NCBI GenBank assembly: GCA_945897335.1
Contig: CAMDFP010000015.1
Coordinates: 1 to 32,065 of the forward strand
DNA: 32,065 nt
Direction of reading: 5' to 3'
Source of the DNA: Asaia bogorensis
Lineage (GTDB): Bacteria > Pseudomonadota > Alphaproteobacteria > SHVZ01
The notes below the pieces were generated by a model. The model did no database searches and was not told where the DNA came from. It saw only the letters and a list, made by a program, of their open reading frames with translations. Positions 5,209 to 32,065 of this stretch are shown in pieces (position 1 is the stretch's first letter; each line of letters starts with the position of its first letter). The position numbers and the translations under genes were made by a program.

Positions 5209-6222
5209 ATGAGCCTGGAGGCGGCAACGCGCGGGGCCTTCGCCCCGGCCGAGGAAGCGGTCGCCTCCGGACGGATTCCCGGTGCGATCCTCGGCGTGCT
5301 GGCGCCCAACGGAAAGACGGCGGTGCGCGTGACCGGCTTCGCCCAGCGCGTGCCGAAGAAGCGGAAGCTCACCCGCGCCACCTGGTTCGACCTTGCCAGC
5401 GTCACCAAGGTGATCGCGACGACGACGGAGATCCTAAAGCTGGTCGAGGACGGGCTCGTCGGGCTCGACGATCCTTTGTCCGCGCATATCCCCGACTTGC
5501 ACCAGTACGTCGTCACCGCGCCGATCCGCCGGATCACGCTTCGCCAATGCCTCTCGCACCAGACCGGCCTTCCGGCGGTCGAGCCGATCTACACCTGGGG
5601 CAATGATCCCGAGACGCTGAAGGCACATATCCTCCAGCGCGACTGGCCCATCGGCGCCAACGTCTATTCCGACATCAACTTCATGCTGCTCGGCATCCTG
5701 ATCGAGCGCCGCCGCGGCCGTACGCTGGCCAAGCTGCCGCGCGGCACGGGCCTCGGATTCCTGCCGAAGGGCAGGAGCTTCGCTGCGACCGAGGCCTGCA
5801 CCTGGCGCCGCCGGGTGATCGTTGGCCAGGTGCATGACGAGAACGCCTTCAGCCTCGGTGGCTTTGCCGGGCATGCCGGTCTGTTCGGCACGGTCGACGG
5901 CGTGCTCGGGTTTGCAAAGCGCCTGCTCGCGGGCAAGGAGCTGAAGCCGGAGTCGATCGCCGAGATCAGGAAACGGCATTCGGCGACGAACAACCTCGGC
6001 TGGCAGCATCATCACGAGGGCTGGTCCGGCGGCGACCTCTGCTCGCCCGAGACCATCGGGCACACCGGCTTCACCGGCACCGGGATCTGGATCGACTTCG
6101 CCCGTGGCTATGCCTGGACGCTTCTGACCAACCGCGTGCATCCGACCCGGCATGTCGAGACCGGCATCCAGGATCTGAGGAAAGCCGTCGGGAATCGCCT
6201 CGCCGCCGCGCCGCCGTTCTAA
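5209..6222 (+). CDS. Beta-lactamase-fold serine hydrolase
   Basis: A 337-residue cytoplasmic-looking serine hydrolase of the class C beta-lactamase / esterase fold. The three active-site motifs are present: S64-V-T-K67 (nucleophile and general base), Y153-S-D155 in the Y-x-N position, and H285-T-G in the K-T-G position. There is no signal peptide, unlike true AmpC beta-lactamases or penicillin-binding proteins. The ATG at 5209 is chosen because the anmK stop lies just before it; the frame stays open further upstream inside anmK. Tight linkage to anmK suggests a role on recycled muropeptides, for example an esterase or amidase. Antibiotic resistance is not supported. Confidence 0.88.
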   Translation: MSLEAATRGAFAPAEEAVASGRIPGAILGVLAPNGKTAVRVTGFAQRVPKKRKLTRATWFDLASVTKVIATTTEILKLVEDGLVGLDDPLSAHIPDLHQYVVTAPIRRITLRQCLSHQTGLPAVEPIYTWGNDPETLKAHILQRDWPIGANVYSDINFMLLGILIERRRGRTLAKLPRGTGLGFLPKGRSFAATEACTWRRRVIVGQVHDENAFSLGGFAGHAGLFGTVDGVLGFAKRLLAGKELKPESIAEIRKRHSATNNLGWQHHHEGWSGGDLCSPETIGHTGFTGTGIWIDFARGYAWTLLTNRVHPTRHVETGIQDLRKAVGNRLAAAPPF

Positions 6223-9664: not shown

Positions 9665-9703
9665 CGCAGGGAGTTCCCGAAGTGGTGATCTCGGAGCGCG
9701 GCC

Positions 9704-10213
9704 TTAAGCTGCGCCCGTTGCCGATCCCACGTCCAGCGCCTTGACGAAGATCACCTTGCCGTCGCCCGCGGCATAGAAGTCGTCAAGCCGCGCCACCTCG
9801 ATGTAACCGCAGGCGTGGTAGAAGGCGCGGGTCGGGTCGTATTGCGCGCGCGACGACGTGTCGACGTAGAGGCGCCGCCCGCCAATCGCGCGGATCGCGT
9901 CCGTGCACGCCCGCTCCAGCAGCCGCCCGACGCCACCGCCACGACGGGCGGCATTGACGACGATCCAATAGAGATCATGGCTCGCCTCGGTGCCGGCGAT
10001 CGGGCCGAAGCAGACATATCCGACGGCGCGGCCGGCCTCCTCGGCGAAGATGAAGTGATAGCCGCTGCCGGCCTCGCCCTTCGCCAGCGCATCAGCGACC
10101 AGCTCGACCGCGATCTCCTCTTCTGGGCCGGTGAAGAAGCCGGTCGAAGCGACGAGGCGGCGGACGGCATCGCCATCCTCCGGTCGAATGCCTGGGCGAA
10201 GGGTGACGGTCAT
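9704..10213 (-). CDS. GNAT family N-acetyltransferase of the KamA/ATP-grasp cluster
   Basis: A 169-residue GNAT enzyme. Motif A appears as NAARRGGGVGRLLERA (about residues 85-100), and motif B as the region around TRAFYHACGYIEVARL. The ATG at 10213 is chosen because the upstream ligase stop (10218-10220) is 4 bases away; an adjoining GTG is also possible. As the last gene of the four-gene operon, it could acetylate the product of the mutase and ligases. Acetylation of beta-lysine by a GNAT (AblB) after a lysine 2,3-aminomutase (AblA) is known in methanogens. This protein is much shorter than AblB, however, so orthology is not claimed. Confidence 0.88.
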   Translation of the reverse strand: MTVTLRPGIRPEDGDAVRRLVASTGFFTGPEEEIAVELVADALAKGEAGSGYHFIFAEEAGRAVGYVCFGPIAGTEASHDLYWIVVNAARRGGGVGRLLERACTDAIRAIGGRRLYVDTSSRAQYDPTRAFYHACGYIEVARLDDFYAAGDGKVIFVKALDVGSATGAA

Positions 10214-30310: not shown

Positions 30311-31483
30311 TCACGCAGTTTCCTTGAACAGCTCACGGCCGATCAGCATGCGGCGGATCTCGGACGTCCCGGCGCCGATCTCGTAGAGCTTGGCGTCGCG
30401 CAGCAGGCGGCCGGTCGGATAGTCGTTGATGTAGCCGTTGCCGCCGAGGCACTGAATCGCTTCCAATGCCATCCATGTCGCCTTTTCCGCGGCATAAAGA
30501 ATGGCGCCGGCGGCGTCCTTCCGGGTGACGCGGCCTTTGTCGCAGGCCTTGGCCACCGCATAGACGTAGGACTTGGCGGCGTTCATGCCGACATACATGT
30601 CGGCGAGCTTCCCCTGCATGAGCTGGAACTCGCCGATCGGCTGGCCGAATTGCTTTCTCTCATGCACGTAAGGTACGACCACATCCATGCAGGCCTGCAT
30701 GATGCCGAGCGGGCCTGCCGACAGCACGGCACGCTCGTAGTCGAGGCCGCTCATCAGCACGCGGGCGCCGCCGTTCAGCTGCCCCAGCACGTTCTCCACC
30801 GGGACCTCGCAGTCGACGAAGACCAGCTCGCAGGTGTTGGAACCCCGCATGCCGAGCTTGTCCAGCTTCTGCGCGGTAGAGAAGCCCTTCATCCCCTTCT
30901 CGATCAGGAAGGCGGTGATGCCGCGCTGATGCGCGTCTGGATCGGTCTTGGCATAGACCACCAGCGTGTCCGCATCCGGGCCGTTGGTGATCCACATCTT
31001 CGAGCCATTGAGGACGTAACGGTCGCCCTTCTTCTCGGCGCGCGTCTTCATGCCGACGACATCGGAGCCGGCGCCGGGCTCGCTCATCGCGAGCGCGCCG
31101 ACATTCTCGCCGGAGACCAGCTTCGGCAGGTATTTCTTCTTCTGCGCGGCGGTGCCGTTCAGCCGGATCTGGTTGACGCAGAGGTTGGAGTGCGCGCCGT
31201 AGGACAGCCCGACCGAGGCCGAGGCCCGGCTGATCTCCTCCATGGCAACGCAATGCTCGAGGTATCCCAAGGCCGAGCCGCCATACTCCTCGTCGACGGT
31301 GACGCCGAGCACGCCGAGGTCGCCCATCTTCCGCCAGAGATCCGAAGGGAATGTGTTCGAGCGGTCGATCTCGCCGGCCCGCGGCGCGATCTCCTTCGCC
31401 GCGAAGCTGCGGACGGATTGCCTGAGTTCGTCGGCGGTCTCGCCGAGGTCGAAGTCGAGGCTCGGATACTCGTTCGACAGCAT
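30311..31483 (-). CDS. ivd: Isovaleryl-CoA dehydrogenase
   Basis: A 390-residue acyl-CoA dehydrogenase for leucine breakdown (isovaleryl-CoA to 3-methylcrotonyl-CoA). [18 protein letters not shown] and [19 protein letters not shown] are family segments. E250 in [19 protein letters not shown] is the catalytic base in the position special to isovaleryl-CoA dehydrogenases (helix G). The C-terminal site used by other members reads [10 protein letters not shown], without the Glu. The ATG at 31483 has CAGGGAG upstream and starts the conserved N-terminus. It leads the leftward operon with the SDR and a second acyl-CoA dehydrogenase. The usual partners for methylcrotonyl-CoA carboxylase (liuB/liuD) are not in the window. 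Confidence 0.95.
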
Positions 31484-31573
31484 GCCGGCTCCCTGAAGGA
31501 TGCACTTACTATAGGGGCCGCCCCTCCCCTTCGCCACGGTTCACCCACCTCGCCGATGCGCTAGGATCCGCCC

Positions 31574-32065
31574 ATGCGCACACCGAGCCTGACCTCCTGG
31601 GTCACCGTCCTGATCGCCGGGTCGATCATCCTGACCCTATCGATGGGAGCCTGACAGGTCTCCGGCCTGTTCCCTAGGCCCGTGGTCATGGATCTCGGCC
31701 TCTCGCGCGAGGCCTTCGGCACCGCGGTCGCGCCGCGCTATGTCCGGTTCATCACCAGCCCTTACACGGTCTCGCTGCTCCGCGTCGTCGCCTCCGAAGC
31801 GACGCGCACGCCGGAGCTCGGCCGGATCTTCTACGAGAACGCCCCCGGCCTCGGGCGACGACGCTTCGCCGAACTCCTGCAGGCGGCCGATGCCAAGGGA
31901 ATCCTGCGCGTCTCAGATCCGCTGCGCGCGGCCGATCACTTCTTCTCGCTGCTGCGGAGCGACATGCACATCCGCTGCCTGGTCGGCCTGCCGGCACCGG
32001 GAGAGGAGGAGCTCGACGACCACGCGCGCGAGGTCGTCGAGATGTTCCTCAGACTTTACCAGCCA
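31574..32065 (+). pseudogene. Broken MFS transporter start joined in frame to a TetR C-terminal domain
   Basis: One reading frame runs from ATG 31574 to the window edge, with a single TGA at 31652-31654. Codons 1-53 match the start of MFS transporters: a first helix TVLIAGSIILTLSMGA, then QVSGLFPRPVVMDLGLSREAFGTAVA. Family members typically have Arg where the TGA stands (SMGARQ). From about 31733 the same frame reads RYVRFITSPYTVSLLRVVASEA, ELGRIFYENAPG, and LRAADHFFSLLRSDMHIRCLVG. This is typical of the ligand-binding half of TetR-family regulators. Neither the remaining MFS helices nor a TetR DNA-binding domain is present. The pattern suggests a deletion that fused two genes plus a nonsense change. 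The gene continues beyond the window. Translation from ATG 31689 is possible but would give no DNA-binding protein. Confidence 0.7.

Follow-up and report, generated by a model that had tools for sequence, protein, structure and literature searches.

An in-frame MFS-TetR fusion beside ivd is very probably a pseudogene scar left by the loss of an efflux-pump locus

Does the open reading frame at the right-hand end of this contig encode a purposeful fusion of a transporter with a regulator, or is it the trace of lost genes? The window analyzed here, 32,065 nucleotides in length, is an entire contig (G000:C15:1-32065) of a draft genome of 442 contigs that is 95.8% complete. Positions 31574-32065 read in one frame as MRTPSLTSWVTVLIAGSIILTLSMGA*QVSGLFPRPVVMDLGLSREAFGTAVAPRYVRFITSPY.... 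From the ATG at 31574, the start of an MFS transporter runs for 26 codons to a TGA and for about 26 more beyond it, and 113 codons for the C-terminal part of a TetR protein follow; the TGA is the only stop, and the rest is open to the final base. The features of the region are listed below; G005 (locus L024, public sequence VGEH01000145.1, "Alphaproteobacteria bacterium isolate K_Offshore_80m_m2_051") and G002 (locus L025, public sequence JAEULB010000076.1) are two relatives of the same genus.

30311..31483, minus strand: intact ivd-like acyl-CoA dehydrogenase gene that borders the former island on the left (93% to G005; Pfam acyl-CoA dehydrogenase domains)
31484..31573, no strand: ivd upstream region; a -10-like CTATAG, about 28 bp from the ivd start, is conserved both in relatives that have the island and in those that lack it
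31574..31731, plus strand: 5' remnant (codons 1 to about 53) of a gene for an MFS transporter, interrupted by an in-frame TGA (tblastn with the G005 MFS protein; DNA comparison with L024)
31652..31654, plus strand: premature TGA, CGT (Arg) in the intact relative (sequence comparison)
31682..32065, plus strand: residual open frame from GTG 31682 or ATG 31688, 126-128 amino acids, open at the contig end (ORF list; AlphaFold2)
31726..31731, plus strand: probable deletion junction with the 6-bp microhomology GGTCGC (base-by-base comparison with L024 and L025)
31727..32065, plus strand: 3' part of a TetR gene (TetR_C_7) without the DNA-binding domain, cut by the contig end (PF14246; 61-68% to the TetR proteins of G005 and G002)

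The preliminary description of this DNA had read the frame as an MFS start with TGA in place of Arg, followed by an in-frame switch to a TetR ligand-binding half, and this was confirmed by in-frame reading, tblastn and Pfam searches. Positions 31595-31732 matched residues 13-58 of the G005 MFS protein (80% over 46 residues, E 1e-16, tblastn), and at the DNA level the MFS remnant matched L024 at 77%. Positions 31727-32065 corresponded to residues 95-207 of the G005 TetR protein at 61% in protein comparison, and the values for the intact TetR proteins of G005 and G002 together ranged from 61 to 68%. Like members of the TetR family with the AefR-like TetR_C_7 domain, the fragment matches nearly the whole of the PF14246 model (4.8e-33, model positions 5-119 of 119), so that the C-terminal ligand-binding domain is present. 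It differs from them in the N-terminal helix-turn-helix: PF00440 (TetR_N) gave no match in the window fragment, compared with 2.2e-19 in the intact G005 tetR, and the fragment is no regulator as it stands. The Pfam MFS models gave no match in the fragment, which retains about 53 MFS codons with the TGA at codon 27 and falls far short of a complete MFS transporter of about 400 residues with approximately 12 membrane helices. An NCBIfam search of the fragment returned no family name. The MFS protein of the intact relative is distantly like lactate/oxalate-formate transporters.

When 40 relatives were searched at the DNA level, the same region was recovered within the genus. The gene order in G005 is ivd (minus), MFS (plus), emrB (minus), emrA (minus), tetR (plus), an alpha/beta hydrolase gene (minus) and a Rieske protein gene (minus). 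The intact MFS and TetR genes that the preliminary description had proposed to look for in close relatives are therefore both present in L024, together with two pump genes:

L024 5236-6459, plus strand: MFS, intact
L024 6601-8193, minus strand: EmrB (NCBIfam efflux_EmrB 468 bits, cut-off 230)
L024 8190-9284, minus strand: EmrA, intact
L024 9410-10045, plus strand: TetR, intact

The window matches L024 on one strand, at 5272-5409 and then at 9692-10030, so that the parents of the fused frame are intact, separately encoded, and in the same order and orientation, as in a deletion scar. The same fused gene, which, found without a stop in relatives, would have spoken for a genuine fusion, was absent from the five other genus members and the one family member searched. 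When GTDB genome contigs were scanned with the TetR alignment, the only matches were G005, G002 and one distant TetR at 36%, around which no other island proteins were found.

Compared base by base, the window tracks the MFS gene as far as 31731, and agreement with the TetR gene begins at 31726, the hexamer GGTCGC being common to both. The switch is thus real and in frame, but it lies within this hexamer, a few bases before 31733, near which it had first been placed. The codon phase at the joint is identical in the two genes (GTC GCx), which explains the in-frame fusion; this is a matter of chance, one in three. Relative to G005, approximately 4.28 kb are missing. This stretch takes in most of the MFS gene, emrB and emrA, the gap between emrA and tetR, and about 94 tetR codons. 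One deletion had already been proposed, and this part of the proposal holds; the MFS and TetR genes were not neighbours, however, since in the G005 order emrB and emrA lie between them. A shared word of 6 bp is typical of microhomology-joined or slipped deletions. We consider it very probable that a single deletion of this size left the fused frame behind as its scar, a fusion pseudogene that arose through the loss of an efflux-pump locus. Such a deletion (about 4.28 kb at the G005 length) within the arrangement ivd(-), MFS(+), emrB(-), emrA(-), tetR(+) would have removed the 3' part of the MFS gene, the whole EmrAB-type pump, the operator region of the pump and the TetR DNA-binding domain. 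Its ends would have met at GGTCGC, consistent with microhomology-mediated or slipped-strand joining, and the nonsense codon in the MFS start may have arisen before or after it. The number of differing bases among the 339 of the TetR part was 102 between the fragment and G005, 94 between the fragment and G002, and 91 between G005 and G002; the divergence of the fragment is therefore like that between the two intact genes, as expected of the species' own orthologue. Known microhomology-joined deletion scars and fusion pseudogenes likewise consist of two truncated genes with a short shared word, here of 6 bp, and a nonsense codon in one of them; the difference is that the frame happens to be kept at the joint in the window. 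The kind of event is ordinary, and the locus offers a clean example of a pump lost together with its dedicated regulator, as well as a warning that an in-frame joint can mimic a purposeful fusion protein.

The alternative that the MFS and TetR ends were misjoined during assembly near the contig end, in an organism that has the intact locus, is unlikely but survives better than the others. The contig stops 334 bp beyond the junction, so that the TetR stop codon falls outside it, and the genes located beyond tetR in G005 and G002, among them the hydrolase and Rieske genes, were not found at the DNA level in the window's own genome, for all its 95.8% completeness. The bin probably lacks the contig that adjoins this one, and because these flanking genes are missing too, the pump could likewise lie on a contig that was not binned. 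On the other hand, the two sides have just 6 bp in common, and k-mer assemblers need an overlap far above that; the MFS and TetR parts each derive from the expected locus, on the correct strand and in the correct order; and the MFS part has a nonsense codon of its own. These three points make an assembly error unlikely. Moreover, the MFS 3' part, emrBA, the tetR 5' part, a close EmrAB orthologue and a second TetR copy were not found in the bin, where the search for the lost parts returned distant paralogues only (best match 45% for EmrB and 43% for the MFS start).

Erosion of the island is also seen in relatives. G002 has ivd, emrB, emrA and tetR and no MFS gene; the gap between ivd and emrB contains a 112-bp piece (L025 1250-1361) that resembles the central part of the MFS gene at 70% and scores 40, against a maximum of 22 among 200 shuffles and of 28 in the rest of L025. 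This piece is a decayed MFS fragment and marks a separate erosion of the same island. In G001 and G006, ivd directly adjoins the hydrolase gene, without the island. Since G001 pairs with G005 in the ivd tree (support 0.98), the distribution calls for one or more additional losses or for a separate gain. Most likely, the locus is under erosion and the window carries a pseudogene scar of ordinary gene decay.

Could the remnant still work? Started at 31682 or 31688, it might supply a short TetR ligand-binding domain without the DNA-binding part, acting for example as a ligand sink or dimer partner. The open frame of at least 126 amino acids is free of stops, and the AlphaFold2 model, of moderate confidence (mean pLDDT 65), keeps the helical core, with helices starting at the joint and the MFS part unstructured. 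The 113 TetR codons contain neither a frameshift nor a stop, which means that the decay is recent or that some constraint remains. Nevertheless, we regard a working remnant as very unlikely: no promoter-like or terminator-like site was found in the remnant, no clear ribosome site was seen by eye, the bin has no full-length copy of the same TetR as a partner, and the same form occurs in no relative searched. There is also a slight excess of replacement changes, the lineage-specific codon changes of the TetR part being 9 silent and 15 replacement in the window against 16/12 and 10/8 in the relatives; the numbers are small, and they hint at relaxed constraint. We infer that the remnant is without function. 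The least probable reading of all is that the deletion turned the repressor into a short protein that is expressed and binds ligand, in effect buffering it without contacting DNA, and that selection has kept.

The probable role of the lost regulator can be read from the intact loci. In both G005 and G002, tetR and emrA are divergent, with a gap of about 125 bp that contains the perfect 19-bp palindrome AAACTGAACGGTTCAGTTT (L024 9321-9339, L025 4149-4167); a weaker second copy lies in the same gap of G005 (L024 9382-9400). Allowing up to three mismatches, the palindrome occurs nowhere outside the emrA-tetR gap in the G005 and G002 genomes, and it is absent from the whole bin G000, from G001 and from the window. 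It is likely to be the TetR operator, a candidate put forward from its sequence and position. Similar arrangements have been described in Rhizobium etli, in which rmrAB has a divergent TetR gene, and in Sinorhizobium meliloti, in which emrAB is accompanied by the TetR-like EmrR (PMC6780985). G005 and G002 likewise have emrA-emrB facing tetR, with the operator-like palindrome in between, and the EmrB protein passes the DHA2 efflux_EmrB model. The window differs from these systems in having neither the pump nor the DNA-binding half of the regulator, of which the C-terminal part alone is left. The restriction of the palindrome to the emrA-tetR gap is what one would expect of a local repressor dedicated to the pump, as described in those two species, and speaks against control of ivd; most likely, the lost TetR governed the EmrAB-type pump in this way. 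The TetR-operator-pump unit of the relatives is well defined and testable.

The preliminary description had also suggested that loss of the regulator freed the ivd operon from control, and this found no support; we consider it even less probable than a working remnant. The remnant is divergent from ivd at a distance of 90 bp, and in betaproteobacteria the genes for branched-chain amino acids are under the control of a TetR protein, LiuQ. However, LiuQ is reported to be unique to that group, and the regulator with a wide distribution is LiuR, a MerR protein (PMC5343134). In addition, tetR faces emrA in the relatives and the palindrome is confined to that gap, no copy with up to three mismatches being present near ivd or elsewhere in the window; G001 and G006 have ivd without the island TetR; and the CTATAG element keeps its place, 28-31 bp from the ivd start codon, whether or not the island is present. 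As a separate observation, a close copy is found nowhere in the window's genus, and relatives of only 33-37% elsewhere, of a MerR gene, possibly of the LiuR type, that a distant relative, G034, has upstream of its ivd (L029 8098-8535).
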